Shown here in pieces: positions 1,833 to 37,057 of a stretch of 40,670 bases of DNA (position 1 is the stretch's first letter; every line of letters begins with the position of its first letter). A program made the position numbers and the translations under genes. This DNA comes from an uncultured bacterium (GTDB lineage Bacteria; UBP6; UBA1177), in NCBI GenBank assembly GCA_905235605.1, contig CAJOMF010000053.1:1-40670 (forward strand), read 5' to 3'. Below the pieces are notes generated by a model that saw only the letters and a list, made by a program, of their open reading frames with translations, did no database searches and had not been told where the DNA came from.

Positions 1833-1841
1833 AGGACTAAA

Positions 1842-3266: not shown

Positions 3267-3421
3267 GAAAATTTGTCCCCGGTGCAGAATATGGCTATGA
3301 TTTAACTACTTATGAAAAGTGGCAGCAGTCAGGATTCCCGCAAACAAATGTAGATCCGTATTCAAATTTGCAACAAAGTAATGGTTTTATCCAGACGAAT
3401 GTTGATCCGTATTGGTATTAG
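3263..3421 (+). pseudogene. Orphan toxin-tail remnant, copy B
   Basis: An open stretch of 52 codons starting at a GTG that overlaps the WG-repeat gene's stop, reading VRKFVPGAEYGYD, TYEKWQQSGFPQTNVDPY, then a second short repeat ending TNVDPYWY. It matches the last part of the Rhs toxin tail but has lost the upstream half and any toxin domain. It has an extra unit (SNLQQSNGFIQTNVDPY) shared with copy C. Its TAG stop merges with the ribosome binding site (TTAGGAGGA) of the lipoprotein gene at 3431. Best read as the leftover 3' end of a replaced toxin cassette. Confidence 0.75.
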
Positions 3422-3430
3422 GAGGACAAG

Positions 3431-4192: not shown

Positions 4193-4501
4193 GTGTTGAA
4201 AATGATGGAAGAAGGATCTGTCATAAAATATGACGACGATGGGAGGAAGGTCTTTATTTTCAATCCTTATTACAGGGAAAAAGATCCGTTAAAAGAACTC
4301 TTTTGGAAAAAGCAAAACGCCGACGGAACAAATGGATTTGTCAGGAATTATTTCGCACCTGGTGCAGAATACGGTTATGATTCTACAACTTATGAAAAAT
4401 TTCAGCAATCAGGTTTCCCACAAACAAACGTCTATCCGTATTCAAATTTGCAACAAGGTGGAGGTTTTATCCAAACTAATGTAGATCCATACTGGTATTA
4501 G
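4193..4501 (+). pseudogene. Orphan toxin-tail remnant, copy C (longest)
   Basis: A 102-codon frame (GTG, or TTG at 4196, or ATG at 4202) that begins where homology to the Rhs tail begins: KMMEEGSVIKYDDDGRKV, then FNPYYREKDPLKELFWKK, NADGTNGFVRN, APGAEYGYD, TYEKFQQ. It ends with two related units, TNVYPYSNLQQGGGFI and TNVDPYWY. The whole tail is intact but the toxin domain and Rhs core are absent. It could still be translated as a small protein, since it directly follows the lipoprotein stop. The stop forms TATTAGGAGG, supplying the ribosome binding site for the next gene. Confidence 0.7.
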
Positions 4502-4512
4502 GAGGTGTTGCT

Positions 4513-6158
4513 GTGTTGAAGCTTATAAAAGGTGTTTTACTCAATACTTTGATAGTTTTCCTTGCCGAATTTGTAGCACTGATACTTTTAGGCACTTTGG
4601 TATATGTAAAAATTCTTTCTCCAGAATATTTTTTTACATGTCTGGCATTTATCTTTTTACCAGTTTCTTTTTGATTGGAAAGAATTTGGCTGTTAATGGT
4701 ATAAAAAAATACCTTCTCTTTTTCTGTTTCCTTGCGACAGGCCACCTTGCAAATGTTTTGGTTTTTAAAGAGAAATTTAACTTCAAAACCGTATCTCTGC
4801 TGGTTTTATTTACTTTTTGCGGACTTGTCGGAATTCTTGTCAGAGAAAAATCGTTCTCTGTAAAAAAATACGTGGTAACAGTTCTTATTCTGATTTCTTT
4901 GCTTTTGGTTTTGACTCCTTTCCTGCCTTTATTAAAAAGCGTTCAGCATGAAAAAACTCTTATTGAATACATTAAAAACGATGAAACTGAAAAGGCAAAA
5001 GTCTTAGTAATAGAAAAAGGGGCAGATGTGAACTTGACCGATGAAACTGGCGCGACTCCTGCGATGTGGGCTGCATATAAAGGAAATGTCGAAATTCTGG
5101 ATATTTTGCTGAAAAAAGGTGCCGACGCAAATCACAGCGGTATTTTAAATGTAGAAAAATTTGGCACAGTATATACCAATGCAATTAATGCCGCAGCAGG
5201 AGAAGGACACCTTGAAGCAGTTAAATATCTGATTGAAAAAGCCAATATTTCTGCAAGTACTGTCGGAATAGCAATAAGAGATTTTTTCTTATCGGAAGAC
5301 GATGTTTCCGACCCAGACGGTTTGTGCAAGTTTATGCAAAATTCTGATGATCAAATTTCAAAAAAAATTCGCAAAAATACTTCTCTTTCGATGTTAGGGT
5401 GCAAGGATGGCAGACTTACGGATAAAAACCGTTCTGTTTTCAGAAGTTCAATTTCGATCCTTTTTTCTGAAATGATAAAATCAGTTGTTATAGAAAAAAC
5501 CAATCAACTCATAAAGATGCCTGTCCAAAATATAAAAGATATAGCCGAAAACAGATTCTTCATAGATAAAACTTTCGGTAATTACATCAAAACATTGAAA
5601 AATTATAAGTTCTTCGATGAAAACAAAAAAGGAGTTACACCTTTAATGGAAGCGGTATCAACTGCTAAAAAAGAAGTGGTAGTTTATCTTCTCGGAAAGA
5701 ATGCAGATCCAAATTTTCAGAGCGAATACGGTATAACTGCTCTTCATGAAGCGTTGTTCAACATGCACTATGATATCGCAAAAATCCTTCTTGAAAACGG
5801 TGCAAAAGCTGATTTGTATGCAGAAGGGGCAAACGCTTTCAGAGTTTATCCAAGTCTGGGAATCGTTCCAAAAGATTGTATCCCGTCGGAAATGGAACCA
5901 GCGGAATACAATAAACAGATTATGGAGATTGTTCCGCCGATGTTTAAAGCCGGAGCAAAAGCAGAGCAGTTTTCTCCGACAGTAATTGAATTATGCCGAT
6001 GCAAAAATCAGGAATTGGTTGAATTTTTGGTTTCATACGGTGTTGACCTTGATTTTAAATTTGAGGACGGGCGGACTTTGAAAGAAATCTGCGCCGAAAA
6101 CGGTGTCGAAATTAAAGATGAGTGGTTGAAGAAAAAGGAAAGGCAAATGGCGCAATAA
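4513..6158 (+). CDS. Membrane-anchored ankyrin-repeat protein, candidate immunity protein (probable N-terminal frameshift)
   Basis: The main frame (4638-6158, 506 residues) has several hydrophobic segments (for example YLFTSFFLIG, KYLLFFCFLATGHLANVLVF, VSLLVLFTFCGLVGILV, VVTVLILISLLLVLTPFLPLL) followed by ankyrin repeats: VNLTDETGATPAMWAAYKGN, VEILDILLKKGADANHSG, and a second cluster GVTPLMEAVSTAKKEVVVYL, ADPNFQSEYGITALHEALF. A separate 53-codon frame begins at GTG 4513, right after a GGAGG site, encodes another hydrophobic helix and overlaps the main frame at a T7 run (4629-4635). The likeliest reading is one gene from 4513 with an indel in T7; otherwise translation starts at 4638 without an obvious ribosome binding site. 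Immunity is inferred from position. Confidence 0.65.
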
Positions 6159-8669: not shown

Positions 8670-8870
8670 TTGAAAAACACAACATGGAAAGATGTTTTGA
8701 GCTTTATCGCGCTTGCAGCGATGACGATGATGATGGTGTGGATGGTTGTGAGAGATATCGACAAGGATGTCGAGCGCGACTGCGGATACACAAGATTTGA
8801 GGGTGCGCCGGAGTGGTGCGAAAGCTGGTGGAACGACCAAAACGTGCCGATGATTAACGGAAATAAGTGA
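8670..8870 (+). CDS. Small membrane protein
   Basis: A 66-residue protein starting at TTG (8670), 8 bases after GGAGG. It has one predicted transmembrane helix (VLSFIALAAMTMMMVWMVV) and a short acidic C-terminal part with two cysteines. Its TGA overlaps the ATG of the transposase gene (8868-8872), so translation is probably coupled. No family recognised. Confidence 0.6.
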   Translation: MKNTTWKDVLSFIALAAMTMMMVWMVVRDIDKDVERDCGYTRFEGAPEWCESWWNDQNVPMINGNK

Positions 8871-11209
8871 TGTCTGAACTCTGGATCACGGTCAACACTG
8901 CCGCTGACTTACTGCAAGTGTCAGAGCGGACAATACGAAGGCAGTGTGCGCTAAACAAATACACGGTGCAGACTGTGTCAAGCAATGTGGGCAGAGGCGG
9001 TGTGTCGTATCAGATCGATCTGGCAAGTCTGCCGGAGAGGGCACAAATAAAATACTGGGAGACACGGAACGACGTGACGGGAAAACCTGACCCCTCAGCC
9101 GCAAGCGGCAGCTCCCCTGCAACAGGAGAGCCGAGAAAGGCGACCTCACCCCAAACCCCTCTCCAGTGTGGCGAGGGGCTGACTGATAGCCGGATTCAAT
9201 CCGGCACAACAAACGAAGCTCAAAGGTTGACGCGCAATGAACAAAGCTCTGAAGAAGCCGCGCATGACATGCAGCGGCAACAGACGATGCAAGAGGTCGT
9301 AAGTCTGAATGCGAAGAACAGGGAGATTCTGGAGAGGAATCTGGAGATGGTTGAATTTTTCAAAGGGCTGAAGGGGGCAGAGATCGACAGCGCGTTGATT
9401 CAGTGGAACTCTGAGCACGGGGATTCACTGAATAAGCGTACTGTTTACAGGATTCTGCAAAAATTCCGGGACGGCGGTGCTGCTGCGGTTGCGGGCAAAT
9501 ACGGCAAATCGGCGGGAACGTCAACGATACCGGATGAGTGGTGGCGCAAGTTCATGCAGGTTTATGCTGCACTTGGGAACAAAACATCGCTCTCGGCGTG
9601 CCGGGAAATTGTCCGCGGTTACGCAATCAAGACGGGAGAAATTGAGCCTGACGGCGATTTCCCGAGCCGTGACGCTTTCAGGAGACGGCTGAACCGTGAG
9701 CCGCAGGCAGTGGTCGAGTATATGCGCGAAGGTAAAGACCATCATAAGCGTTACCACAGTCTTTATATTGATGTTAACCGTGACTCAATACAGTGCGGTC
9801 AGATATTCGTAGCAGACCACGCGAAATTCGATTTCTTCGTGCAGACGAAGGACGGCAGACTGGTTCGTCCGTGGATTAGCGCAATGTGCGACTACAAATC
9901 AAGAATGATCGTCGGTTATGACCTCTTTCTTGATGAGCCGAACGGAGATCACATCATCATCGTTTTGAAGCGATCGTTCGAGAATTACGGCATTCCGCAG
10001 AAACTGCTTTTCGACAACGGCAAGGACTACCGCAGAAAAGACATCGGCGGAGGCCGTCCGACCCGCACATCCGATCTTATTGAGAATTACACTCCGACGA
10101 TAGTCAATATCCTCGGTATCGAAGTGAAATACGCGATTCCGTATAACTCTCAGACGAAGCCGATCGAGAGGGTGTTCGGTATTTTCCGGCAGTATTTCGA
10201 CAAGTTCATGCCGGGATACGTCGGATCGGACGGAAAGCAGAGGCCGGACAAGACGAAAGAGCTGGAGCTGAAGGCGGCTAAACTGATGAGACAGAAAAAC
10301 ACCGCCGACAGTATAACAAAGGCGAAGGATGCAAATGCCGAATATTATTCGGCGCAACAAACGAAGAATGAGGTCGCGCAATCGACGAAGAATAAGGTAG
10401 AACTGCCGGTTCTGCAGTTCGATGAATGGGAAAACACGGTCAGAGAATTTATTGATATTTACAATCACAGGGTTTTTGAGTCGGGGAAACAGGCAGGGCT
10501 CTCGCCGGTCGGGATCTGGCAGAAGGATTCGCCTGTTATGCGTGCACCTGAAACAAGGGATCTTGCGATTCTGTGTGCATCAAGCGGCAATCCGGTGCGC
10601 GTCAGCAGAAACGCTCTCAGAGACACCAGAAGCGGCGAACGCTACTGGGCACCGTGGACTGCGAAATGGGAAGGCGGCAAGCAATATTTCTTCCTTAGAA
10701 TTGACCCTGAAAAGCCTGAAACCGCCTATTGTTTCTATGCCGACTACGACACCAAGGAAAACTGCTACAAGCTCGGTTCTTTTGCCGGAACTGCCGACAG
10801 AATACCGAGTGTCAGCCTGTACGACGATTCGGAAGAGAACCGCGCCGAACTGGCAAGACAGATGGAAATCAAGAACGGGCTTGTCAGATATGCGAAAAAC
10901 GAGCTGAAAAAGGCTGTTGGAGATCCGCTGAGTCCGGATGAGACGCTTGAACTTATGAAGATCAGTGTCATGGCAGACCACAAGGCTGCATGCGCTGCAG
11001 CAGGAATTTCTGCCGAAGATCCGGGCGCACCCGCCGGAAAGCAGATCACACGGTTTTCCAGTGTTGCACATGACATTGAAGAGGCTGAAAACGCCGGTGT
11101 CATGTCGCTTGCCGTTGCTCAGCACATTCTTGAAAAGAAAAAGGATGAGGAACCGAAGATCGTCCGGTTCCGGAAATATGTAATCACGAAGGAGGATGAA
11201 GATGACTAA
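8870..11209 (+). CDS. Mu-type DDE transposase (MuA homologue)
   Basis: A 779-residue protein catalysing strand transfer of the phage ends. The N terminus (LWITVNTAADLLQVSERTIR) is the Mu-type winged-helix domain that binds enhancer/operator DNA. Further helix-turn-helix segments follow (about 165-215), then an integrase-like core with the triad D316 (FVADHAKF), D382 (LFDNGKDY) and E433 (KPIERVFG), and a C-terminal region expected to contact MuB. Length is somewhat above Mu's 663 residues, partly because of two insertions: residues ~74-120 (low-complexity, palindrome-rich DNA) and ~486-510, each containing the dispersed palindromic element read in frame. ATG 8870 is preferred to GTG 8867. Confidence 0.95.
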   Translation: MSELWITVNTAADLLQVSERTIRRQCALNKYTVQTVSSNVGRGGVSYQIDLASLPERAQIKYWETRNDVTGKPDPSAASGSSPATGEPRKATSPQTPLQCGEGLTDSRIQSGTTNEAQRLTRNEQSSEEAAHDMQRQQTMQEVVSLNAKNREILERNLEMVEFFKGLKGAEIDSALIQWNSEHGDSLNKRTVYRILQKFRDGGAAAVAGKYGKSAGTSTIPDEWWRKFMQVYAALGNKTSLSACREIVRGYAIKTGEIEPDGDFPSRDAFRRRLNREPQAVVEYMREGKDHHKRYHSLYIDVNRDSIQCGQIFVADHAKFDFFVQTKDGRLVRPWISAMCDYKSRMIVGYDLFLDEPNGDHIIIVLKRSFENYGIPQKLLFDNGKDYRRKDIGGGRPTRTSDLIENYTPTIVNILGIEVKYAIPYNSQTKPIERVFGIFRQYFDKFMPGYVGSDGKQRPDKTKELELKAAKLMRQKNTADSITKAKDANAEYYSAQQTKNEVAQSTKNKVELPVLQFDEWENTVREFIDIYNHRVFESGKQAGLSPVGIWQKDSPVMRAPETRDLAILCASSGNPVRVSRNALRDTRSGERYWAPWTAKWEGGKQYFFLRIDPEKPETAYCFYADYDTKENCYKLGSFAGTADRIPSVSLYDDSEENRAELARQMEIKNGLVRYAKNELKKAVGDPLSPDETLELMKISVMADHKAACAAAGISAEDPGAPAGKQITRFSSVAHDIEEAENAGVMSLAVAQHILEKKKDEEPKIVRFRKYVITKEDEDD
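9091..9180 (+). repeat. Palindrome-rich insertion in the transposase linker
   Basis: A run of short hairpins inside MuA: GCCGCAAGCGGC, AGCTCCCCTGCAACAGGAGA, and CCCCTCTCC...GGCGAGGGG. It translates as low-complexity sequence (PSAASGSSPATGEPRKATSP) between the N-terminal DNA-binding domain and the next domain, and is followed at once by a copy of the dispersed palindromic element. It looks like an intergenic-type repeat inserted in frame. Confidence 0.5.
9189..9227 (+). repeat. Dispersed palindromic element, in-frame copy in MuA (1)
   Basis: GCCGGATTCAATCCGGC then ACAACAAACGAAG, the same hairpin-plus-tail format as the intergenic copies. Translates within MuA as SRIQSGTTNEAQR. Confidence 0.7.
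10329..10400 (+). repeat. Dispersed palindromic element, in-frame copy in MuA (2), with adjacent half copy
   Basis: ATGCAAATGCCGAATATTATTCGGC, tail GCGCAACAAACGAAGAATGAGGT, then a second tail GCGCAATCGACGAAGAATAAGG. Two C/G pairs of the consensus stem are altered here with pairing kept (CCGAAT/ATTCGG). Encodes DANAEYYSAQQTKNEVAQST in MuA. Confidence 0.75.
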
Positions 11210-12107
11210 AAACGCAAAAGAACTGGTTGAAGAGCTCGTCAAGGCGAACTATTCACAGTCAAAAATCGCGAAACTCTGCGGCATTTCGACGGCGGCACTA
11301 AGTGCTTATGTCAATGACAACTACGCGGCGAAGGACAAATCGGAAATTGAAAAGAAAATCGTTTCAGGCTGCAAGACTGAAATTGAAAGAATCACGAAAA
11401 ACATCAATCCGATTCTCCCGTTTCAGGAAACTGCGACAGCCGACATCGTGCTGAACATCGCACATTTATGCCACACGTCGCGCCGGATGGGTTTGATTTA
11501 CGGTGCTGCAGGAGTCGGCAAGACACGCGCCTGTCTTGAATACTGCCGCTACAACAGAAATGCGCTCTATATCGAGGCACGTCCCTCTTTTACGGCAAGA
11601 ACACTTATGCGCAAGCTCGCATCAGCTCTCGGATGCACACCGAAAACCAATCAGTATGAGTTGGAGGAGGAAATTATATCGAAGCTCAAAAACAGCGGAA
11701 AACTGGTCATTGTTGACGAATGCGAGCATTTGAATCACAGGGCACTGGAGACGCTGAGAACGGTTGTTTTCAATGCTTCACACACAGGCCTTCTTCTGGT
11801 CGGACTTGAAACGCTGAAATACATGTTAATCGGAACGCGCACGAAGAACGAATATCTGAGCAGCAGATGTCTTGCCAACAGCCGTGTCAAGGCACTGTCG
11901 GAAGACGACACGGCCAGCCTTATTGAACACCTTTTCAAAGGCTCTTCAACAGCCGTTAAAAAGGCTTTTTATGCGGTTACAAAAGGCAATATGCGGCTTG
12001 TAGAGAATACCGTTTTCGAGATTCAGCGTCTGCTGCAGCTTAATCCGGAGGCGTCATTGACGGCGCAGTTTGTCGAGGCGGCAGCAGCGCAGTCGGTTCT
12101 GGCGTGA
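11202..12107 (+). CDS. AAA+ ATPase, MuB-like transposition activator
   Basis: A 301-residue protein. The N terminus has an XRE-like helix-turn-helix (YSQSKIAKLCGISTAALSAY), followed by a P-loop ATPase: Walker A GAAGVGKT (101-108), Walker B LVIVDECEH (D172, E173). MuB proteins bind DNA as ATP-dependent filaments, select the target and stimulate MuA. The gene overlaps the end of MuA by 8 bases; ATG 11202 is preferred over 11196 because GGAGG (11191-11195) is then correctly spaced. Order A then B is as in Mu. Confidence 0.92.
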   Translation: MTKNAKELVEELVKANYSQSKIAKLCGISTAALSAYVNDNYAAKDKSEIEKKIVSGCKTEIERITKNINPILPFQETATADIVLNIAHLCHTSRRMGLIYGAAGVGKTRACLEYCRYNRNALYIEARPSFTARTLMRKLASALGCTPKTNQYELEEEIISKLKNSGKLVIVDECEHLNHRALETLRTVVFNASHTGLLLVGLETLKYMLIGTRTKNEYLSSRCLANSRVKALSEDDTASLIEHLFKGSSTAVKKAFYAVTKGNMRLVENTVFEIQRLLQLNPEASLTAQFVEAAAAQSVLA

Positions 12108-12134: not shown

Positions 12135-12578
12135 ATGATGGCGATGGAAATTACGAAGGCACAAATAAAACAGATTCACCTGCTGAAAACGAAGCTGGGA
12201 TGGGATGACGAGCTCTACAGGCAGGTTCTGGCTAAATACGGGGTTGAGAGCTCAAAACAGATGTCTTATTCGCAGAGGAACAGGCTGATCTCGGAGATGA
12301 TGAGGGCTGCCGGGGTTAAGCCGGATGCAAATGCCGGATATTATCCGGCGCAATGGACAAAGCCAGAGGTGGTGAAGCCGACCAAGGCGCAGGTTTACGC
12401 GATTGTTGCTATCTGGGGACGGGTTTCACGCGCTGAAGGAAACGAGGCGAAGAGAGCCGCCCTGGACAGCTTCATTGACAAGAAATTCGGGAAGACGCTG
12501 GAAACGCTCACGAGAGCGGAAGCGTCAAAAGTAATAGTAATTTTGAAGAAAATGGAGGAACAGAATGAAAAAAAGTAA
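12135..12578 (+). CDS. gemA: GemA / gp16-family regulator (DUF1018)
   Basis: A 147-residue protein matching the gp16/GemA family by its opening (TKAQIKQIHLLKTKLGWDDE, YRQVLAKYGVESSKQMS) and closing parts (KPTKAQVYAIVAIWGRVSR, LETLTRAEASKVIVILKKM). GemA in Mu modulates host and phage gene expression, possibly through DNA topology. Between the two halves a 15-residue stretch, DANAGYYPAQWTKPE, is encoded by an in-frame copy of the dispersed palindromic element. Start may be 12135, 12138 or 12144; no strong ribosome binding site separates them. Confidence 0.85.
   Translation: MMAMEITKAQIKQIHLLKTKLGWDDELYRQVLAKYGVESSKQMSYSQRNRLISEMMRAAGVKPDANAGYYPAQWTKPEVVKPTKAQVYAIVAIWGRVSRAEGNEAKRAALDSFIDKKFGKTLETLTRAEASKVIVILKKMEEQNEKK
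12325..12370 (+). repeat. Dispersed palindromic element, in-frame copy in gemA
   Basis: ATGCAAATGCCGGATATTATCCGGC then GCGCAATGGACAAAGCCAGAGGT. Close to consensus despite being in coding sequence, so either recent or tolerated in a loop. Confidence 0.8.
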
Positions 12579-13722: not shown

Positions 13723-14337
13723 ATGGCAAAAGTAAAGATGATCGACGACAAGCCCTACTGGGTGGATGCAGACGGCTCGCTGAAGCCGGAAGAGTGCATC
13801 AGCAATGCAGACAAGAAGAAAGAAGAAATGATCGACGCTGTCTTTGAGTCTGTCGGTGAAACAAAAGAAAAAATGGAGAAATTCAAACTCTGGGTCTGGG
13901 AAGTTCTTACGACTTACATCGAGAAACTTGCGAAAAAAGCAAGGGTCGATAAGCCGCAGGGTAACTTCACCATAGTCAACTACGACTCGACAAGAAGGAT
14001 CCGCTTTTCCAGAAGAGAGAGGCAGAATTTCAACGAGAATCTGCAATTTGCAAAAGCGAAGTTTGACGAATGGGTTGTCAAAAAGACAGAGGGAGCTGAC
14101 GAAATTCTTGCCGAACTTGTTCAAAAGGCGTTTGAGGTCAACAAGGAAGGCAAAATCAACCGCAGTTTTCTTTTCAGGCTGCTCGGCTATTCGATCAATG
14201 ACCCGGATTTCAAGAAAGCTCAGGAGCTTTTGAGGAAGTCAATGATCACAAACGGAACAAAAGATTACATCCTTTTCCAGGAAAAGGACGAACACGGCGA
14301 ATGGAAGACGATCCCGCTTGATTTTGCGGCTCTGTAA
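13723..14337 (+). CDS. DUF3164 family phage protein
   Basis: A 204-residue protein recognisable as DUF3164, a family common in the early regions of Mu-like phages: YWVDADGSLKPEECISNADK, then KARVDKPQGNFTIVNYDSTR, RIRFSRRERQNFNENLQ, and NRSFLFRLLGYSINDPDF. Molecular role unknown. Strong ribosome binding site (AGGAGG) before ATG 13723. Followed by two copies of the dispersed element. Confidence 0.85.
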   Translation: MAKVKMIDDKPYWVDADGSLKPEECISNADKKKEEMIDAVFESVGETKEKMEKFKLWVWEVLTTYIEKLAKKARVDKPQGNFTIVNYDSTRRIRFSRRERQNFNENLQFAKAKFDEWVVKKTEGADEILAELVQKAFEVNKEGKINRSFLFRLLGYSINDPDFKKAQELLRKSMITNGTKDYILFQEKDEHGEWKTIPLDFAAL

Positions 14338-14382
14338 TGCAAGTGCCGGATAAAATCCGGCGCAATGGACGAAGCTCGAAGG
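14338..14382 (+). repeat. Dispersed palindromic element, intergenic copy
   Basis: TGCAAGTGCCGGATAAAATCCGGC then GCGCAATGGACGAAGCTCGAAGG, directly after the DUF3164 stop. Confidence 0.8.
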
Positions 14383-14390
14383 AATTTGAA

Positions 14391-14426
14391 GGTTGCCCGC
14401 CGGAGATAAGCCAAAGGTCGGCGGGT
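14391..14426 (+). repeat. Hairpin CCCGCCGG...TCGGCGGG between two palindromic elements
   Basis: CCCGCCG at about 14397-14403 pairs with CGGCGGG at about 14419-14425. Not followed by a T run long enough for an intrinsic terminator. It may be part of a composite repeat. Confidence 0.4.
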
Positions 14427-14444
14427 TTCCTTGAGGTTCTTTGG

Positions 14445-14490
14445 GATGCAAGTGCCGGATAAAATCCGGCGCAATGGACGGAGTTTAAGG
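14445..14490 (+). repeat. Dispersed palindromic element, second copy before the Mor-like gene
   Basis: ATGCAAGTGCCGGATAAAATCCGGC, GCGCAATGGACGGAG, TTTAAGG. The trailing AAGG acts as the ribosome binding site of the gene at 14493. Nearly identical to the copy 107 bases upstream. Confidence 0.8.
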
Positions 14491-14492
14491 TA

Positions 14493-14810
14493 ATGAAAGA
14501 AGAGTTTCTCAAATTCGTGAATGAAAACATGACGGTGGACGATATGCCGACAAAAGACATGAAGCTGATTGCAGAAAGCTGCGGCATTGACGTTGCCATC
14601 AGATTAATGTCCAAGCTGAGAGGCGGTCTTCACATCTATACTCCGAACTTCTGGCAGAAAAAGATCGTAAAGAAGTATATCCTGGCGAACCCGCACAAAA
14701 GCGCGAAAGAAATAGCGAATGAGGTTGAGATGTCCGAGACTTTCGTGAATAAGATTCTGAACGAAAAGGCGGCGGATAACAGGCAGGGAACGATTTTTGA
14801 TTTTGATTAG
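14493..14810 (+). CDS. mor: Mor/C-family transcription activator
   Basis: A 105-residue protein with the Mor layout: an N-terminal dimerisation part (LIAESCGIDVAIRLMSKLRG), the characteristic GLHIYTPN segment, and a C-terminal helix-turn-helix (KSAKEIANEVEMSETFVNKI). In Mu, Mor turns on middle transcription and C turns on late transcription; only one such protein is visible here, so it may do both, for instance at the divergent late region near 24.2 kb (inference). Confidence 0.85.
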   Translation: MKEEFLKFVNENMTVDDMPTKDMKLIAESCGIDVAIRLMSKLRGGLHIYTPNFWQKKIVKKYILANPHKSAKEIANEVEMSETFVNKILNEKAADNRQGTIFDFD

Positions 14811-14819
14811 GAGGCTGTA

Positions 14820-15440
14820 ATGCTGTGGACTGACATGACCAGAAAGATGCGCTCCCAGGCGCGTAAGGACATTGAGAAGTGCTGCGCTTTGGGGAAGCGT
14901 TACAGTGTCCGGGCTGTGGACAACTATACGGTGGAGGCGCGTGCCGAGGGCGAGACGGAGCCGCTTATCAGCTATAATTTCAAGCAGATGTACCACACTA
15001 TATACTACATGAGTGCGTACTTCGACGAGCTTGAGGTTTTCAGGAATGCGCGGTTTCTCAAGTTTTGCCGTTCGGCAGACAAAAAGACGCTGACGGTGCA
15101 TCCTGCGGAGAGCCCGAAGAAGGTTTTTGCGGTGGATTTTGACGGCTTTCTGTTTGAGGAGGCGTTCCCGGAGATCGGTAAGCCGATTCTGCAGAACATA
15201 GTTATCTGCAAGCGGATCAGGAAGGCGGGACACACGCTTATTCTGTGGAGCTGCAGGGCGGATGAGAAGCTGAAGGAGGCGGTCGAGGCGTGTGCGAAGT
15301 ATGATCTTTTTTTTGACTATGTGAACGAAAACACGCCCGAAAATATTGAGAAATACGGCAATGATTCGCGCAAAATCTGCGCGGACTACTACTTTGACGA
15401 CAGGAATATTGATCCAAAAGTAATTTATGATGCGATTTAG
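14820..15440 (+). CDS. HAD-superfamily hydrolase with extra N-terminal domain
   Basis: The C-terminal half (residues ~100-206) is a phage/gut-type HAD phosphatase: motif I VFAVDFDGFLF, motif II LILWSCRADE, then YFDDRN as the acidic motif IV region. The N-terminal ~90 residues (RKDIEKCCALGKRYSVRAVD, QMYHTIYYMSAYFDELEVF) are not recognised. HAD proteins of this type probably act on small phosphorylated substrates, perhaps nucleotides. It lies 9 bases after the Mor-like gene. Its codon use looks more G/C-ending than its neighbours, suggesting separate acquisition. Confidence 0.75.
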   Translation: MLWTDMTRKMRSQARKDIEKCCALGKRYSVRAVDNYTVEARAEGETEPLISYNFKQMYHTIYYMSAYFDELEVFRNARFLKFCRSADKKTLTVHPAESPKKVFAVDFDGFLFEEAFPEIGKPILQNIVICKRIRKAGHTLILWSCRADEKLKEAVEACAKYDLFFDYVNENTPENIEKYGNDSRKICADYYFDDRNIDPKVIYDAI

Positions 15441-15449
15441 GGAGAAAAA

Positions 15450-15629
15450 ATGATTAACAAATTTCTTTACGGCTGTCTTTGTGTTGTGGTATCATCGGGA
15501 TTGGTGCTGTTTGTGCAGGCGATGATGCTGAAATATATGGAATGCAGATTTGACGAGATTACGGCTGCGGTGCTGACCGTCGTTTGTATGCTGAAGTTCC
15601 CAGACAAAAAGGAGGACGGAGATGAGTAA
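15450..15629 (+). CDS. Small membrane protein
   Basis: A 59-residue frame with GGAG eight bases before ATG 15450. One or two hydrophobic helices (LYGCLCVVVSSGLVLFVQAM; AAVLTVVCMLKF). It overlaps the next gene in an ATGAGTAA junction, implying coupled translation. Could be holin-like or simply an early-operon membrane protein; nothing decides between these. Confidence 0.55.
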   Translation: MINKFLYGCLCVVVSSGLVLFVQAMMLKYMECRFDEITAAVLTVVCMLKFPDKKEDGDE

Positions 15630-15939
15630 GGAAATTGAAGTCGCGGAAGAGTTGAAAAACGCTCCTGAAGATGTCGGATCGGACGAGCCTACTTGGATTT
15701 ATGACTACGAAAATACTTATAAAGGGTATCCATTTTATAAAAGAAAAGCAACAGACACTATATGGTGGGTAGATGTCACCGACATGAAAGGGTTTAATCT
15801 TATTAGTTTTGACAAAAAAGAGGTTTTTAATCTGTTCCGGGATTATCCTTGGAAGCTGACTGACGAGCAAGTCGAGATTTTTAAAAGAGAAAATCCTTAT
15901 TGGGCAAACTTTTTTAAAGATCGTAAAAGAAACCGCTAA
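15622..15939 (+). CDS. DUF7675-like protein, candidate immunity protein to the MuF toxin
   Basis: A 105-residue acidic protein with aromatic-rich sequence: YDYENTYKGYPFYKRKATD, TIWWVDVTD, FDKKEVFNLFRDYPWKLTDE, ENPYWANFF. The pattern matches a small soluble family I know as DUF7675; its function is uncharacterised. It ends 2 bases before the stop of the convergent MuF gene at 15942, and both genes are visibly AT-richer than the flanking phage genes where they meet. Together these suggest a toxin/immunity module. Ribosome binding site GGAGGA at 15611. No signal peptide, so it would act in the cytoplasm. Confidence 0.65.
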   Translation: MSKEIEVAEELKNAPEDVGSDEPTWIYDYENTYKGYPFYKRKATDTIWWVDVTDMKGFNLISFDKKEVFNLFRDYPWKLTDEQVEIFKRENPYWANFFKDRKRNR

Positions 15940-15941
15940 AA

Positions 15942-17339
15942 TTATTTCTCAACAGTATTTAAATAACCCAATAATGTTTTAAATTCAGCATTATTTCTGA
16001 GTTTTTCGATACTAAACAAAACCGTTCCATTTCCACCCCGTGTCCTGCAATTAAAACGGTATTCTAAAGCATCATCTGTCAAGTCAACAAAACCGCTGTT
16101 CGCGCCTTCCTGCAATTCCAAAAATTGAACGGCATCTTTTGTTTTTCTGACTATCGCGGAATGGTTGCCGGTTGAAAGATAATATTCTTTGCCTGAAATC
16201 AACATGTTCATTAAAGATTTTACAGCCTTAAATTCGTTACCGTGGATAACAACACCGCCTGCCAGTTTGCTGATACGAATGATGTTGGGATCGCTGCCAA
16301 AGAAAATCAAAGAAGAACCTCCTCGGTTGTCAGCAACATTTAGGCCGATTTTATTCCCTGCATAAGCCAGCGCGAGAGAGGAACAAGAGCCAACCCCTTC
16401 ATCTTTGATTGCTATTTTTTTGACGATCTGCTCCTCTGAAAGTCTCTTCTTTAAAGGCAAAACCTCTTTGTATTCAATATCTTTCTTTTTTATTCTTGCT
16501 TGAAGAATATTAAAGGCACTATTGTTGTTTGTCGCGGCTTTTATCACATTGTTAAACTGTTTTTCCAGCACGGGATCTTTTCCGTCATCCATCGGCTGAT
16601 ATGCCGCTTTTCCGGGGTTGTAGTTCCAGCCGACATCGGTCTGGACGGTGGTTTTGCCGTTGCGGTAGACTTTGCCGGTGACTTTCTGGCCGTTCGGAAG
16701 TGTTGCGGTAGCGTTCAACAGCTTGCCGTCGGTGTTTTCGACTGTGAGGCCGCGCTGTTTGAGTTCGCGTTCGCTGAGTGATTTGACTGTGCAGCGGCAG
16801 TTCCAGCCGTTGGGCGGAAAGAAGGTGTCCCAGAAGGGATCGTCCCAGCGGAAGACTTTGCCGTGGAGCGACTTATGCTCCTTCCGGGTGCGGTCGTCCA
16901 TGACGGCGATATACTGCCAGTAAGGGCGGAACTTCGCGTTTTCAGCGAGGTCGTTGTAACGCCCGGTCTGGTATGCGGTGCGGACGTTGATGTCGAAGAT
17001 TTTCTCGAGGCGGCGGACGCTTCCGAGCTGGATCTCTTTCTCCGGATTCTTGGGATCGGGAACTTTGCCCCACCATCCTTTCTGCTTTAAAAGGGGTTTA
17101 AGCTCCTTTTGAAACTGCTTTAAAGTGGTACCTTCGTCGATGGCTTTCTGAACGGCGGCCCGGATGTCTTTGAGGACATCGTATCCGGCTGTTTTGGCTA
17201 CGGTAAAGATTTTGTCGTGCTCTTTTTCATAGATTTCATACCAGTTCCAGGATTTCTGAGAGACCTTTTTTTCGAGGTATTCGGAAGCCAGTTTCGGCTT
17301 CATTTTGAAGAGGGCTGCGAGGTTGATATTACCGGGCAT
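15942..17339 (-). CDS. MuF head protein fused to a papain-like toxin domain
   Basis: A 465-residue protein. Residues ~1-245 are a MuF/SPP1-gp7 minor head protein: VRTAYQTGRYNDL, MDDRTRKEHKSLHGKVFRWDD, FFPPNGWNCRCTVKSL. MuF proteins sit inside or at the portal of the capsid and can enter with the DNA. Residues ~290-460 form a separate domain with a likely Cys-His-acid site: C319 in GVGSCSSLALAYAGNKIGL, H393 in STGNHSAIV, E408 in QFLELQ. This matches papain-fold toxin domains found at the ends of MuF and other polymorphic toxins. The 3' third is AT-richer than the MuF part, with a junction near 16560. The convergent gene at 15622-15939 is the best immunity candidate. Confidence 0.85.
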   Translation of the reverse strand: MPGNINLAALFKMKPKLASEYLEKKVSQKSWNWYEIYEKEHDKIFTVAKTAGYDVLKDIRAAVQKAIDEGTTLKQFQKELKPLLKQKGWWGKVPDPKNPEKEIQLGSVRRLEKIFDINVRTAYQTGRYNDLAENAKFRPYWQYIAVMDDRTRKEHKSLHGKVFRWDDPFWDTFFPPNGWNCRCTVKSLSERELKQRGLTVENTDGKLLNATATLPNGQKVTGKVYRNGKTTVQTDVGWNYNPGKAAYQPMDDGKDPVLEKQFNNVIKAATNNNSAFNILQARIKKKDIEYKEVLPLKKRLSEEQIVKKIAIKDEGVGSCSSLALAYAGNKIGLNVADNRGGSSLIFFGSDPNIIRISKLAGGVVIHGNEFKAVKSLMNMLISGKEYYLSTGNHSAIVRKTKDAVQFLELQEGANSGFVDLTDDALEYRFNCRTRGGNGTVLFSIEKLRNNAEFKTLLGYLNTVEK

Positions 17340-19842: not shown

Positions 19843-21318
19843 TCATATTTTGCCTCCACTGTTGCCGTACATGTCGGCTGCGGCACAGGCGCGTTCGAGA
19901 ACGTCTTCGAGTTCGTCGGTGTTGAGTTCGGGAAGGAGCTCGCCCAGCTTTTCATAAATATCTTCAAGGCTTTCACCTTTTTCTATGAGGTCGAAAACGG
20001 GTTTCAGGATGCCTTCCATGATTTTCTGCTGGAGTTCGGGAGGAAAGGCCCTGGATGCGGCGCGGTCGAGGAGATCTTTGAGACCGGGGCGGCCACCGCT
20101 GTAATTCGCACGGATAATATCCGGCGCAATGGACAAAGTCTGAGGTTGCGCCGCCGAGAAAAGCGACTGCTGGGGCTCAACGATTGTGAAATCCTTTTCA
20201 CCGAGGTTGTATGCCCGCTGAATGTATTTAGGTGTGAAGCGGACTCCGATGCCGGAAAGGATCGCATCTCTTTCTGCAAGCTGCTTGTTGGTTTCCTCGG
20301 GTTCCGAAAAACGGAATGCAGGAGCGATCACATCTTTTCCGAAGTTCTGGTCTATAGTCCATCTGACTATCTGATTGAGAGTTTCTTCAATGATTCTCGC
20401 ATCTGAAAGAATGATGTCCTTGCGGACTTCATTGTGTGTCTGTGCTGCGGCTAAGCTGCCTGTGGAGCTGAGTTCGGTTGTCAGGGTCTGACCGAGTATG
20501 GCCTTGCTGATGTCGGCGTTGCATGCGTCTTTCAGCTTGTCGAATATATCAGCCGAAGCACCTTTCCCGGATGCTTCGATGATTTCGATTTTGGAGGTGT
20601 CGGGAACGACGGCTATAGCATCCTGAACCATGTTTTCAAGCTGATCTGCGAGGATGTTCTGATTTTCGTTGCTTGTTCCGGGAGCATACTTCCCGACAAG
20701 CCACGGGGAGCCGTATTTCTCGGTGAATGCGACCCAGAACTTGAAATTTCCCTTCTTGAACATTGCAGGCCAGAAACAGAGGGAAAGCACGGATGTTCCG
20801 TAAGGATTCTTGTAGGTTTCGTCGTTCGTGGGACATACGAACTTCATGGGCGGAAGTTCTTCGCCTGTTACGGGGTGCTTTCTGGAGAGGAAGCGGAGTT
20901 CGTTTTTCTCGCCGAAGCAGAACCATTCAACGGGTTTTGCCTCCATTTTTGCCGGAACGATACGTCCTTTGCGGACTTCCCAGTCGATTTCAATTGGCTG
21001 GTATCCGTAAGCTACACATCCGAGAATCTTTCGGAAGAGTTTGTGGTAATTGAAGCGGTCGAAAGTTTCCTGAATGAAATCGATGATTTTCTGATCTGCG
21101 TCTTTTCCTTCGAGTTCGAATTTGAGTTTTAAGACACCCGCTTTCCTCGATGACATGCAGCTCCGCACCTGCGCGTCGTAAAGAAGATCGTCGTAAGCCG
21201 AAATCCTTTTTCCGAGTTTAGCAAGAACCGGATCGGGATTCGGAAGAATCTGCATGAATGAAATCAGATCAAATGCCGTGAGTCTGTCAGCTACTGTTTT
21301 TCCGAGTATTTTCTGCAT
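19843..21318 (-). CDS. Portal protein, DUF935 (Mu gp29-like)
   Basis: A 491-residue protein recognised by GCVAYGYQPIEIDWE, KYGSPWLVGKYAPGTS, LGQTLTTELSSTGSLAAAQ, HNEVRKDIILSDARIIEETL. Portal proteins form the dodecameric vertex for DNA entry and tail joining. Between the core and a C-terminal extension (GLKDLLDRAASRAFPPEL) sits QPQTLSIAPDIIRANYSGG, encoded by an in-frame, reverse-oriented copy of the dispersed palindromic element. Order terminase-portal-MuF/gpG follows Mu. Confidence 0.92.
   Translation of the reverse strand: MQKILGKTVADRLTAFDLISFMQILPNPDPVLAKLGKRISAYDDLLYDAQVRSCMSSRKAGVLKLKFELEGKDADQKIIDFIQETFDRFNYHKLFRKILGCVAYGYQPIEIDWEVRKGRIVPAKMEAKPVEWFCFGEKNELRFLSRKHPVTGEELPPMKFVCPTNDETYKNPYGTSVLSLCFWPAMFKKGNFKFWVAFTEKYGSPWLVGKYAPGTSNENQNILADQLENMVQDAIAVVPDTSKIEIIEASGKGASADIFDKLKDACNADISKAILGQTLTTELSSTGSLAAAQTHNEVRKDIILSDARIIEETLNQIVRWTIDQNFGKDVIAPAFRFSEPEETNKQLAERDAILSGIGVRFTPKYIQRAYNLGEKDFTIVEPQQSLFSAAQPQTLSIAPDIIRANYSGGRPGLKDLLDRAASRAFPPELQQKIMEGILKPVFDLIEKGESLEDIYEKLGELLPELNTDELEDVLERACAAADMYGNSGGKI
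20109..20149 (+). repeat. Dispersed palindromic element, in-frame copy in the portal gene
   Basis: CACGGATAATATCCGGC, GCAATGGACAAAGTCTGAGGT. It lies antisense to the gene and is translated as SIAPDIIR plus flanks near the start of the portal's C-terminal extension. Confidence 0.75.
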
Positions 21319-21331
21319 GTTTCACCTCTAT

Positions 21332-22687
21332 TTAATACATGTCTAACCATCTTGATGTCTGTCTTGGCATTCGGGAGTTTATGACCACCGGAGTGTCGTC
21401 TGTTGCGTCGGCGGCATATAGAGAAAGAGCGGCAGCCCAGAATTCATCGCTGTGTCCTGCTTCTGTGCGCTCGGCATCGAAGCGGATGTTTCCGGCAGCG
21501 GTCACTACGCGCTTGATGTTATGAAAGGATTCGCGGATTTCCTGGGTATCGGGAATGAGAAAACGGCGGTCCTGCAATTTTGTAAGAACGCGGAATGCCA
21601 TGTCCTCTTTGACCGATCCGCTGAAAGTGACCTGCTCTATTCTGTAACGCCCGAAACAGGTCTGGGCTTCTTCGGCGAACTGCATTCCGAGACCGGTCGA
21701 GTCTATGCAGCAACGGCGGAGATTCGGCAACGCAAGAAGCGGCCAGATCACCGCTTTCTGGTCACTGAAAGTCATGTTCCTGAGTGTGATCACGCGCCGG
21801 GTGACAAACAGACATGTGTCTGTTTTTTCTGTAATCCAAATCGCGGTCAAATCTGATTTGCGACCGATGTCTATACCTATATATATTTCATTCATTGCCC
21901 GGATCTCATTGATGTCTCGGATGATCTCCTTTTCGTCGCAGGAATTGAGGGCAAGGAGATCGTAGGTTATGAATGCAGTAGCGGAGTCAACGGGCTGGCA
22001 GCAGTACTCCTGGAGCCAGATGTCATCGCTTACGCAGTTCTTTCTGACTTTGGCAATCCATTCGGCCTGCTCTTTTTCAGAGGTGGTGCGGCCCATGATG
22101 TTGTCAAGCAAGCCCTGCTTAACCGCTTCGGCAAGGGTCACGCTGTGAAGAGACCAGTTGAGCTGGCCGTTTTTCACTTTCTGAATAAGCCTGTAATAGA
22201 GGTTGTTCATGCCGCGGTAGGTTGAGATTATCCTTATCGGATCGCCGCGCAGGATCGCAGGCTGAGCGGCTGCGTAAAGCTCGTCCTGGTGCTCGTGAAA
22301 AGCGAACTCGTCAAGAATGACCTTTCCTCCTTTGGAACGGAAGCGTCCCGGCGCGGAAGTCATTGCATGGATCTCAGATCCGTTTTTCATCCGGATCAGG
22401 CGTGACTGTATGCCTTTTTGCGGATCGACGATTTCTGTTCCGATGTACGAGGCCGCTATATTGAATAGCTTTTCCAGGAAAAAGCGGCAGTAGTCGATGT
22501 ATTCAGCAGCCGCTGAGTCATCACGCGAGCTGAACCATACTTTGCGGTTTCTCTGCATCAGGCTGTATTCAACGTCTTCATAGGCCTGTGCATAAGTGAT
22601 ACCGATACGGCGTGATTTCTCGACAATCTTGAACCGTGACTGATCATTGATGTAATGTATTTGGTATGGAAGGAAGTTGAAAGACAT
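21332..22687 (-). CDS. Large terminase subunit (Mu gp28-like)
   Basis: A 451-residue packaging motor. ATPase part: Walker A region VEKSRRIGIT (22-31), Walker B KVILDE (D126, E127), coupling motif STYRG. Nuclease part with an RNase H-like set of acids: D273 in IGIDIGRKSD, D329 in CCIDSTGLG, D414 in GHSDEFWAA. Length is normal for the family. Mu packages by headful from the host-flanked left end. It is 13 bases upstream of the portal gene on the same strand. Confidence 0.93.
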   Translation of the reverse strand: MSFNFLPYQIHYINDQSRFKIVEKSRRIGITYAQAYEDVEYSLMQRNRKVWFSSRDDSAAAEYIDYCRFFLEKLFNIAASYIGTEIVDPQKGIQSRLIRMKNGSEIHAMTSAPGRFRSKGGKVILDEFAFHEHQDELYAAAQPAILRGDPIRIISTYRGMNNLYYRLIQKVKNGQLNWSLHSVTLAEAVKQGLLDNIMGRTTSEKEQAEWIAKVRKNCVSDDIWLQEYCCQPVDSATAFITYDLLALNSCDEKEIIRDINEIRAMNEIYIGIDIGRKSDLTAIWITEKTDTCLFVTRRVITLRNMTFSDQKAVIWPLLALPNLRRCCIDSTGLGMQFAEEAQTCFGRYRIEQVTFSGSVKEDMAFRVLTKLQDRRFLIPDTQEIRESFHNIKRVVTAAGNIRFDAERTEAGHSDEFWAAALSLYAADATDDTPVVINSRMPRQTSRWLDMY

Positions 22688-22701
22688 TTTAATGCTCCTT
22701 T

Positions 22702-22750
22702 ATGCAAATGCCGGATAATATCCGGCGCAATGGACGAAGAATGAGGTTGC
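22702..22750 (+). repeat. Dispersed palindromic element, intergenic copy (consensus)
   Basis: ATGCAAATGCCGGATAATATCCGGC, GCGCAATGGACGAAGAATGAGGTTG. The closest to consensus of all copies, between baseplate V and terminase genes and antisense to both. Confidence 0.85.
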
Positions 22751-22759
22751 GGCGGCGAA

Positions 22760-23302
22760 TCATTGTGACACCTTGATTGTGGTCGAGGGTTGAAGGTGAC
22801 ATGTACCGAAGACGGGACAGGGGCTCGCACTGTGAACGACGGGAAACGTCGGCTGTCCCGCGCCTTTGATCTCGACACTTGAACCGTCTGCAACTATCGT
22901 TGTGGTGCCGATTGTAATGGTGACTTTGCCAGGGTTCTCTTCGACTTCGACTTTGGTTCCGTCTTTGAATCTGAAAACAGATTTTCTTTCGGTTGAGTCA
23001 AGGTTTGCCTTGTCGTCGTAGAGGCGGCATATAATCCAGCCGTCATCCAGTGTATCGTCCATGATACAGCCGACATAGTCACCGACCCTGTAGATGTATT
23101 GAATGTCGGGACCGGAGAAGCCGATCTGAAGCCAGTCGGTAACCATCTGTTTCCCGTCTGAATCGCATTGTGCTGCGAGTTGGACTTTTGCCTGCATTTT
23201 TCCCGGATCAATATCCGAGATTTTGCCTTCTACCATTCTCATTTTACCAACCGCCGAATTTCGCGCAGAATTGATTTTTGTTGTTTTTTCTATTACTGAC
23301 AC
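22760..23302 (-). CDS. Baseplate spike protein, gpV-like
   Basis: A 180-residue protein (GTG start; ATG 23242 is an alternative). It has an OB-fold-like part (GKISDIDPGKMQAKVQLA, GKQMVTDWLQIGFSG, YIYRVGDYVGCIMDD) followed by short beta-helix-like repeats (SVFRFKDGTKVEVEENPGK, VTITIGTTTIVADGSSVEI) and a tip-like end (VVHSASPCPVFGTCHLQPS). This is the plan of P2/Mu baseplate spike proteins that puncture the outer membrane. Unusually it is coded with the packaging genes on the minus strand rather than with the other baseplate genes at 35-39 kb. Confidence 0.75.
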   Translation of the reverse strand: MSVIEKTTKINSARNSAVGKMRMVEGKISDIDPGKMQAKVQLAAQCDSDGKQMVTDWLQIGFSGPDIQYIYRVGDYVGCIMDDTLDDGWIICRLYDDKANLDSTERKSVFRFKDGTKVEVEENPGKVTITIGTTTIVADGSSVEIKGAGQPTFPVVHSASPCPVFGTCHLQPSTTIKVSQ

Positions 23303-26129: not shown

Positions 26130-26588
26130 ATGAGCAAAACTACATGTCCGGGAATCATCTACACTGTGAGCGGAGCTGCAACCGACACGGAGAAAGGACT
26201 TTTCATCAAACATGACGGAACAGTATGCGGCGCAGGGGAAACCGCTCTCGGTGTTTCCTACGACGAAGCTGACGAAAACGGAGATCTTGCAGTCGTTCTT
26301 GACGGCATTGTTGAAGTTCAGTGCGGCGGATTGGTCAATGCAGGTGACTTCGTGAAAAGCGACGCGAACGGAAAGGCGGTCACGGCTGAAGCAGGTGACA
26401 CTGCAACCGGCATCGCACTTGAAGACGGTGCAGAGGATGTGACGGTACTTGTCAAGATCGTGACTGTTGCGGTCAATCCGGCGGCTGCAGAAGCTGATGC
26501 TTCGACAAGCTCAGCAACCGAGCCGGGAACGGAAGAACCGGGAACGGAAGAACCGGGAACGGAACCGGAAACAACGACGGAACCGTAA
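26130..26588 (+). CDS. Capsid decoration-like protein (DUF2190 type) with repetitive tail
   Basis: A 152-residue protein. The N-terminal ~115 residues are small and beta-rich (GLFIKHDGTVCGAGETALGV, GIVEVQCGGLVNAGDFVKSD, ATGIALEDGAEDVTVLVKI), as in phage head-stabilising proteins that follow the capsid gene. The C terminus is a low-complexity Pro/Glu/Thr tail from a 15-bp tandem (GGAACGGAAGAACCG, about three units at 26525-26569), likely surface-exposed. ATG 26130 is preferred to GTG 26124 because of spacing to AGGGGGTG. Confidence 0.75.
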   Translation: MSKTTCPGIIYTVSGAATDTEKGLFIKHDGTVCGAGETALGVSYDEADENGDLAVVLDGIVEVQCGGLVNAGDFVKSDANGKAVTAEAGDTATGIALEDGAEDVTVLVKIVTVAVNPAAAEADASTSSATEPGTEEPGTEEPGTEPETTTEP

Positions 26589-26589
26589 G

Positions 26590-26639
26590 GATGCAAAAGC
26601 CGGATTCTGTCCGGCGCAATGAACGAAGTTAGAGGTTTT
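26590..26639 (+). repeat. Dispersed palindromic element carrying a ribosome binding site
   Basis: ATGCAAAAGCCGGATTCTGTCCGGC, GCGCAATGAACGAAGTTAGAGG. The trailing AGAGG sits 5 bases before ATG 26640, so the element provides the ribosome binding site of the gp36-like gene. Confidence 0.8.
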
Positions 26640-27080
26640 ATGGCTTATTCGACGAAAGAAGATCTGATAGCGGCATCCTCCGAACGCGATATAATCCAGC
26701 TGAGTGACGATGCCCGCGCCAAAGTCATTGACGAAGGTGTCGTCACGGAGGCTATCTCGAAGGCGGATGCGCTGATCGACAGCTACATCGGCGGCCGTTA
26801 CCGCGTCCCGCTTTCGAGTGTTCCGCTTGTCATCGGGGATATTTCGGCTCAGCTTGCAATCTATTTTCTGTGGGAAAGAAGACAGAGGCAGAACATGCCG
26901 TCTTCACTTATGGAAATTTACAAGAATCTGATCGCCCGGCTGAAACAGATTCATGAAGGAACGATCGGCCTGCCGATTCCGGAGATCGGAGGCGGTGCAG
27001 CTCAGGGCAACGGACCGACCAAATGCAACAAAAGCAGGAAAGACCGGCTGTTTCCGTGGAGCAAGTTGAATAAGTATTGA
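26640..27080 (+). CDS. Head-tail connector, Mu gp36-like (DUF1320)
   Basis: A 146-residue protein: MAYSTKEDLIAASSERDIIQ, KADALIDSYIGGRYRVPLSS, VIGDISAQLAIYFLWERRQR, MEIYKNLIARLKQIHEG. This is the typical pattern of DUF1320/gp36, a head-completion protein. ATG 26640 is chosen because AGAGG (end of the palindromic element) sits just before it and family members begin near this MAY/MYST sequence. Confidence 0.88.
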   Translation: MAYSTKEDLIAASSERDIIQLSDDARAKVIDEGVVTEAISKADALIDSYIGGRYRVPLSSVPLVIGDISAQLAIYFLWERRQRQNMPSSLMEIYKNLIARLKQIHEGTIGLPIPEIGGGAAQGNGPTKCNKSRKDRLFPWSKLNKY

Positions 27081-37006: not shown

Positions 37007-37007
37007 G

Positions 37008-37056
37008 GATGCAAATGCTGAATAATATTCAGCACAACTGACGAAGTCGGAGGTAA
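37008..37056 (+). repeat. Dispersed palindromic element with compensatory stem changes
   Basis: ATGCAAATGCTGAATAATATTCAGC, ACAACTGACGAAGTCGGAGGT. Relative to consensus, CCGGAT/ATCCGG has become CTGAAT/ATTCAG with both arms altered in step. The trailing GGAGG is the ribosome binding site of the gene at 37058. Confidence 0.8.
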
Positions 37057-37057
37057 G

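Follow-up and report, generated by a model that had tools for sequence, protein, structure and literature searches.

MuF polymorphic toxins, as defined by Jamet et al. (2017; PMC5576092), are built on the MuF head protein of temperate phages, which carries a variable C-terminal domain and is accompanied by a small adjacent antidote gene. A small open reading frame (ORF) follows 89.4% of 191 MuF toxin genes (PMC5576092), and the C-terminal domain is an alarmone synthetase in Apk2 (PMC12226406) and an ADP-ribosyltransferase in Bxa (PMC11699363); the Bxa paper further predicts MuF proteins of Bacteroidales with a glutamine deaminase tail. Zhang et al. (2012; PMC3482391) described MuF fused to a papain-like domain, Tox-PL1, with the signature NC-H-DxQ and the partner Imm35. 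Papain-like antibacterial toxins with a small immunity protein are also represented by Cpe1-Cpi1 (PMC12136450), delivered by type VI secretion (T6SS) or contact-dependent inhibition (CDI), with phage unmentioned in the main text, and the term MuF is absent from a classification of papain-like proteins (PMC10318531). Here, we analyze a 40,670-nucleotide stretch of DNA from an uncultured bacterium (contig CAJOMF010000053.1, hereafter the window), in which a MuF gene of a Mu-like prophage ends in a predicted papain-like domain and meets, tail to tail, a small convergent gene of the family DUF7675. We consider it probable that this pair serves a Mu-like temperate phage as a polymorphic toxin-antidote cassette, with DUF7675 as the antidote. 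MuF toxins and the fusion of MuF to papain-like domains are already known, while the pairing of a MuF papain-like domain with DUF7675, tail-to-tail MuF pairs and hoarded or satellite-borne MuF antidotes appeared in none of the open-licence literature searched, as far as its text was available, and among 5.39 million open papers a search found none on DUF7675.

The window carries the sequence traits of a MuF toxin, namely an N-terminal MuF domain, a place in the late head-gene cluster, varied tails on the MuF body among its relatives, and a small adjacent gene. The MuF gene (15942..17339, reverse strand) encodes a minor head protein of 465 residues, with PF04233 at residues 57-185 (16785..17171, reverse; E 1.4e-28, 100.3 bits against a cut-off of 29.6) and matches to phrog_220 over residues 5-306 and to phrog_7104 over residues 262-464. 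The predicted papain-like toxin domain occupies residues 290-465, approximately (15945..16472, reverse). The convergent gene (15622..15939, forward) encodes a 105-residue protein that matches the full 65-position DUF7675 profile with its residues 38-102 (PF24723; E 5.2e-30, 103.6 bits against a cut-off of 27); this is its sole Pfam family at E up to 1, and Imm35 is not matched. An earlier note, made from the sequence alone, had described stop codons two bases apart, an AT-rich block and a Cys-His-Glu pattern, and the coordinates bear it out: the stops lie at 15942-15944 and 15937-15939, and GC content is 0.535 over MuF residues 1-250, 0.388 over residues 251-465 and 0.368 in the convergent gene, compared with 0.504 in the gene at 14820-15440 and 0.465 in the whole window. 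The locus thus resembles the described MuF toxins in anatomy and differs from them in its predicted papain-like domain, in the placement of the putative antidote on the opposite strand, and in the position of MuF away from the portal, at the junction of early and late genes (PMC5576092). Its likeness to Tox-PL1 (PMC3482391) extends to a predicted papain-like domain on MuF with Cys, His and an acid, the acid lying in an acid-x-Gln motif; it is unlike Tox-PL1 in its signature (SC-H-ExQ), in matching no Pfam family significantly, and in having DUF7675 as its partner.

The residues expected of a papain-like active site are conserved across an alignment of 103 rows, comprising the window and 102 relatives. 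Cys319 (codon 16383..16385, reverse strand; the predicted nucleophile), His393 (16161..16163, reverse) and Gln410 of the ExQ motif (16110..16112, reverse) are invariant in 103 of 103 rows, as are Arg339 and Ser343. Glu408, the predicted third triad residue (16116..16118, reverse), is present in 101, with one Gln and one Asp as the exceptions. Because it is conserved across this alignment, the pattern that the earlier note had picked out is not a product of chance. An AlphaFold2 model of residues 262-465 built from the same alignment (pLDDT 90.9, pTM 0.87) places the three residues, numbered 58, 132 and 147 in the model, in the first turn of helix 57-69, at the start of strand 132-138 and at the end of strand 143-147, respectively. 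This is the order of papain-like peptidases, in which the Cys sits at a helix N-terminus, the His at the start of a strand, and the third residue on the next strand.

Comparisons of this model with solved structures yielded mostly papain-like enzymes, at scores short of a clear match. The best Foldseek match in the Protein Data Bank (PDB) is a ComA peptidase domain (E 0.017), and in a second structural alignment the 50 rows shown are, with few exceptions, papain-like enzymes by title. The top Z values belong to YopQ (7.8; rmsd 3.6, 118 residues aligned), SpvD (7.5; 4.5, 146) and ComA (7.3; 3.6, 123), and the rows shown include both 9l5u, a papain-like toxin/immunity pair that is presumably Cpe1 (Z 6.1, rmsd 4.0, 119 aligned), and the CDI toxin 8ssk (Z 6.0, rmsd 4.0, 115 aligned). 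Among viral models, two score better than E 0.001, the stronger of them a minor capsid component (E 2.9e-17), while a sequence search of solved structures returned nothing credible for the toxin family or for the DUF7675 family. Taken together, the model fold, the invariant Cys-His and the near-invariant Glu-x-Gln make it likely that the MuF C-terminal domain is papain-like, and the high-confidence model and the fold rows agree with the earlier note on this identity. The tail would then be a papain-like cysteine hydrolase with a Cys319-His393-Glu408 triad, most likely a protease and less likely a glutamine deamidase, a preference drawn solely from the fact that most of the matched folds are proteases. 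Separately, in one of the 89 toxin-bearing ORFs scanned against Pfam (full-length, from 108 representatives), a match to the metallopeptidase family PF07737 (E 5e-6) accompanies the toxin domain.

The earlier note had staked its proposal in part on the co-occurrence of both families elsewhere, and this expectation is strongly borne out. DUF7675 adjoins the toxin domain in 106 of 108 fetched toxin loci, comprising 27 of 28 on genome contigs and 79 of 80 on viral contigs (the best 80 of 86), both exceptions (L050 and L110) being loci whose contig breaks off at the toxin. All 17 annotated phage records with the toxin domain are among the 25 with DUF7675, and in 41 genomes, the window's own and its relatives, the toxin is found in two and DUF7675 in the same two. 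In the reverse direction, a toxin match is present in 73 of 80 viral DUF7675 loci (the best 80 of 208). It is missing from L135, L140, L143, L147, L172, L177 and L191, of which L177 begins within the last residues of a toxin, while the contig of L172 ends just past DUF7675 and would not include a convergent toxin. A search with the MuF body also led to 34 distinct loci, some being short, in which the MuF relative does not carry this toxin domain; none of the 34 holds DUF7675. The matched stretches touch in both of the layouts encountered, with a median gap of -22 bases in same-strand pairs and 14 bases in convergent ones, and no natural toxin-antidote fusion ORF was found among 188 pairs. PADLOC matches neither protein, and the pair was set aside as a candidate defence system. 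Among the loci, L048 holds two tandem toxin domains with a DUF7675 gene after each, and in L143 and L147 (3320-4198), viral contigs whose fetched locus shows no toxin match, a 292-residue protein ends in DUF7675, its N-terminal part being unassigned apart from a weak esterase match (E 0.045 in L143).

The tail-to-tail layout recurs beyond the window. For the count, toxin matches below 100 bits (fragments, such as those of L022, L050 and L151) were dropped, identical toxins were counted once, and clusters at 85% identity were used because many viral loci are near-copies. The 188 pairs thereby reduce to 128 distinct toxins and 109 clusters, of which 89 are same-strand and 20 convergent (63 and 16 on viral contigs, 20 and 3 on genome contigs, 6 and 0 in phages, 0 and 1 for the window). 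The earlier note had set the convergent arrangement apart from the usual co-transcribed pair; the contrast stands in that convergent pairs recur, whereas most relatives of this very toxin follow the usual same-strand plan. Several independent origins of the convergent layout were considered and dropped: a free quick tree of the toxins needs five layout changes, but a tree uniting all 20 convergent toxins scored higher and was not rejected (p-AU 0.73), and on these sequences the layout may have had one origin. In several convergent loci, the antidote opens a short reverse-strand island, after which come large late-strand genes, capsid-like by eye. The neighbourhood rule of Zhang et al. (PMC3482391) counted same-strand genes and examined head-to-head ones, and tail-to-tail pairs would therefore escape that survey.

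The toxin domain and DUF7675 also differ between close relatives as one unit. In the relative L205, identity to the window stands at 90.3% over 16573-17193, in the MuF body, and at 90.9% over 15437-15634, upstream of DUF7675. Between these flanks, over a block of about 940 bp (15635..16572), identity drops to about 49% (456 of 938 columns, summed from bins), and the toxin domain and the whole convergent gene diverge jointly. L204 shows the reverse pattern, with 58 to 60 of 60 bases per bin identical to the window across the toxin domain and DUF7675 and a divergent MuF start. Because the arrangement is tail to tail, a single-block exchange can span two opposed transcription units, and one recombination block would thus swap toxin domain and antidote together. 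The MuF body itself is found with varied ends, as a short MuF in genome G006 and with other tails in L207, L208, L217 and L218. In L207 (4950-6802) and L217 (1897-3508), the tails are HExxH-like (HEYSH and HEMGH), and a small convergent ORF lies at the stop. Pfam gave no significant support for these tails or small genes, and the idea that they represent the same layout with other, metallopeptidase-like toxins was put aside as a lead only.

The gene order of the prophage bears on when each gene would be expressed. Rightward genes begin with a MuA-like transposase and a MuB-like ATPase (8867..12107, forward; PF02914 E 2e-9 and AAA_22 E 1.3e-16), continue through a weakly Mor-like regulator (14493..14810, forward; PF08765 E 0.018, below the cut-off) and a 59-residue ORF that is membrane-like by eye (15450..15629, forward), and finish with DUF7675. 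The leftward genes comprise the terminase, portal, neck and spanin-like genes and MuF, with the portal and large terminase at 19843..22687 (reverse; portal PF06074 E 1.1e-103, terminase named by place and by eye from its sequence). The start of DUF7675, behind AAGGAGG, overlaps the stop of the 59-residue ORF by 8 bases, indicating translational coupling. Such an overlap of the DUF7675 start with an upstream stop is found in four related phages, the window's and L203, L204 and L205 (the last on the assumption of the same ATG), with an upstream gene in L203 and L204 that differs from the window's. From the Mor-like gene through to DUF7675, L203 has all its picked ORFs on the same strand except for an opposite 195-residue ORF that may be spurious, and Mor-like homologues lie opposite the late-gene strand in L203, L204, L206 and L243. 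These features agree with the earlier note, which had placed the antidote gene on the early, rightward strand, and they support early or middle transcription of DUF7675 without amounting to proof. MuF directly follows the portal in L243, a toxin-less phage with a short MuF from the same host genus, and likewise in L206, L207 and L246, which are more distant. It instead closes the late-gene cluster in the window, where it lies 2.5 kb beyond that position, and in L203, L204 and L205, and has therefore probably been relocated in these four.

DUF7675 is also found where the toxin is not. Streptococcus satellite phages account for 8 of the 25 phage records with DUF7675, and none of them has a toxin match. 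Satellite Javan200 and phage Javan215, both from S. equinus, have DUF7675 proteins that share 90% identity over 70 residues. In satellite Javan482, some 35 residues of a toxin C-terminus precede DUF7675, a remnant from which we conclude that the gene was probably captured from a phage cassette. DUF7675 occurs in 14 of 147 genomes from the genus to which the S. suis locus L026 belongs, in seven paired with the toxin (one degraded) and in seven as an orphan within about 1.4 kb. Whole-genome searches of the seven orphan genomes found no toxin domain, while both paired genomes searched alongside were positive.

Six of the seven orphan Streptococcus loci adjoin ctsR-clpC (five by flank comparison, plus L275; by gene families in L273 and L275). 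L275 is itself a satellite at this site, 97.8% identical to part of Javan361 over 1,115 bases. A purely host-made origin of the chromosomal arrays was rejected on this ground, and the arrays may be satellite remnants. Three of four further array genes tested have phage homologues directly after a gene in the MuF position: a 79-residue gene (Javan330 and Javan583), a 70-residue gene (phi891591) and a 91-residue gene (Javan247 and 33888, and also the satellites Javan354 and Javan632), while an 86-residue gene has no phage match. Javan361 carries the 70-residue gene together with DUF7675. In Javan330, Javan583 and phi891591, the MuF body shares 54-69% identity over 245-270 residues with that of phages with the papain-like toxin, and the tail differs and does not match the toxin profile. 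Pfam returned no significant match for eight small array or neighbour genes submitted. Apart from these arrays, DUF7675 genes that are interrupted, split or degraded were seen in three genomes, G107 (L261), G105 (L262 and L263) and G198 (L272).

The window's host genome likewise has two further DUF7675 genes on another contig (L009; 8559-10003 of contig C29 in genome G000) and a single toxin domain, that of the window. The two orphans flank a nucleotidyltransferase and a second gene, which we take to be HEPN-like, and lie beside matches to candidate defence families of PADLOC, PDC-S09 (E 2.5e-22, in the first protein of the pair) and PDC-S01 (E 4.6e-133). The site is upstream of an S-adenosylhomocysteine hydrolase gene and is recognizable in a second species of the genus by matching DNA on either side. 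At this orthologous site (L242, 5868-7482; contig C12 of G013) lie a MuF-toxin gene, without its first 54 residues as aligned, and a convergent DUF7675 gene, and the 16-kb stretch has no match to the other window-phage genes tested. In gathering antidotes without toxins, these chromosomes resemble the orphan immunity arrays described for T6SS in Vibrio cholerae (PMC5361080) and the EsaG strings of type VII secretion (T7SS; PMC9484751); they differ in that the genes match those found after the tails of phage head proteins, and in that some reside in phage satellites.

The reading that we favour, a toxin-antidote cassette, would operate as follows. The MuF protein would be made late, built into the head, and carried into the next cell together with the DNA or close to it; there, its tail domain would damage a conserved bacterial protein. 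DUF7675 would serve as the antidote, probably by binding the toxin domain. Since DUF7675 closes the rightward early/middle cluster, its synthesis would precede that of the toxin in the producing cell, and in the new one it would begin soon after infection. Several observations weigh against this account. The toxin model has no Foldseek match in the PDB at E 0.001, its best Z of 7.8 lies below 8, a level typical of models without a clear match, and the DUF7675 model (pLDDT 85.1) has no convincing match to any known fold. Pfam gives no significant match to the toxin part, with no family for the window's domain at E up to 5 and a weak Josephin match (E 0.15) in the toxin part of one relative. In the 89 scanned toxin ORFs, MuF-type head models give 46 matches (28 PF04233, 14 PF06152 and 4 VG15), so that about half of the carriers are MuF by place or are not shown to be MuF; the streptococcal carrier type directly after the portal, for example, has no Pfam head-protein match and is MuF by place and, where compared, by mutual similarity. 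The correlation of toxin and DUF7675 distances is weak (r 0.23, with none of 2000 permutations as high and the highest at 0.21) and is uncorrected for shared phage ancestry, and the co-occurrence would fit any protease-inhibitor or chaperone pair. Finally, expression of DUF7675 in the lysogen from its own promoter was considered and dropped: four promoter-like sites were found in the region, one of them upstream of DUF7675 at 15466-15495, against 3.5 expected by chance from shuffles.

A different role for the injected domain would be that of an effector disabling a host defence or a competing prophage, with DUF7675 limiting collateral damage. Other phage head proteins are injected effectors, and the host's orphan DUF7675 genes stand next to the candidate defence families named above. 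However, the satellites and hosts that carry DUF7675 alone are better explained by protection from harm to the cell, and we regard the effector as unlikely. It is quite unlikely, in our estimate, that the domain is a phage processing peptidase that cuts a head or co-injected protein at assembly or ejection and is held inactive by DUF7675 until packaging. Such a role was proposed for MuF-fused Tox-PL1 by Zhang et al. 2012 (PMC3482391), and an early inhibitor would fit it as well. A private maturation peptidase is made less likely by three facts: the domain is optional, since L243 has the same head genes without it; it differs together with its partner, the MuF body bearing unrelated tails in other phages and the streptococcal cases each having their own small gene; and the partner is kept where no toxin is present, as retention of DUF7675 alone by satellites and chromosomes would not be predicted for a private maturation inhibitor. 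A role for DUF7675 in chaperoning or loading the tail domain, instead of inhibiting it, fits the close linkage and joint exchange, but is highly improbable in view of the orphan copies in satellites and toxin-free genomes without known cargo.

If the cassette is a toxin and its antidote, the orphan genes suggest a broader picture to which we give an even chance, that of a three-way arms race among phages with exchangeable cassettes, satellites carrying the antidote, and hosts hoarding antidotes at fixed sites. Here, one set of phage lineages would keep the antidote on the opposite strand and make it early, with the toxin made late and packaged. Satellites would hijack toxin-loaded capsids, the antidote that they carry allowing recipient cells to survive, while host chromosomes would store antidotes against several MuF toxins. 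If this is true, antidote content would help to determine the helper capsids open to a satellite and the phage attacks that a lineage can survive. The analysis supplies a hypothesis of function for DUF7675, as the partner of a papain-like domain that has no significant Pfam match, and indicates that antidote surveys limited to the toxin's own strand would miss the tail-to-tail layout (20 of 109 clusters). The orphan genes, in turn, make the natural role of MuF toxins directly testable.

Two further features of the window lie outside the cassette. To the left of the prophage (28-6158) are an apparent Rhs end whose tail contains HEFGH (810-1832), a displaced copy of the tail (4193-4501), and WG-repeat-like and ankyrin-like proteins, all named by eye. 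A dispersed palindromic repeat with the core TGCCGGATNNNATCCGGCGCAA occurs at 10327-10393, 12318-12389, 14330-14401, 14439-14507, 20111-20165, 22695-22766, 26584-26655 and 37002-37070, with some copies lying in frame within the transposase, the gene at 12135-12578 and the portal. The exact TGCCGGATNNNATCCGGCGCAA core has four copies genome-wide, all of them on the window's contig.

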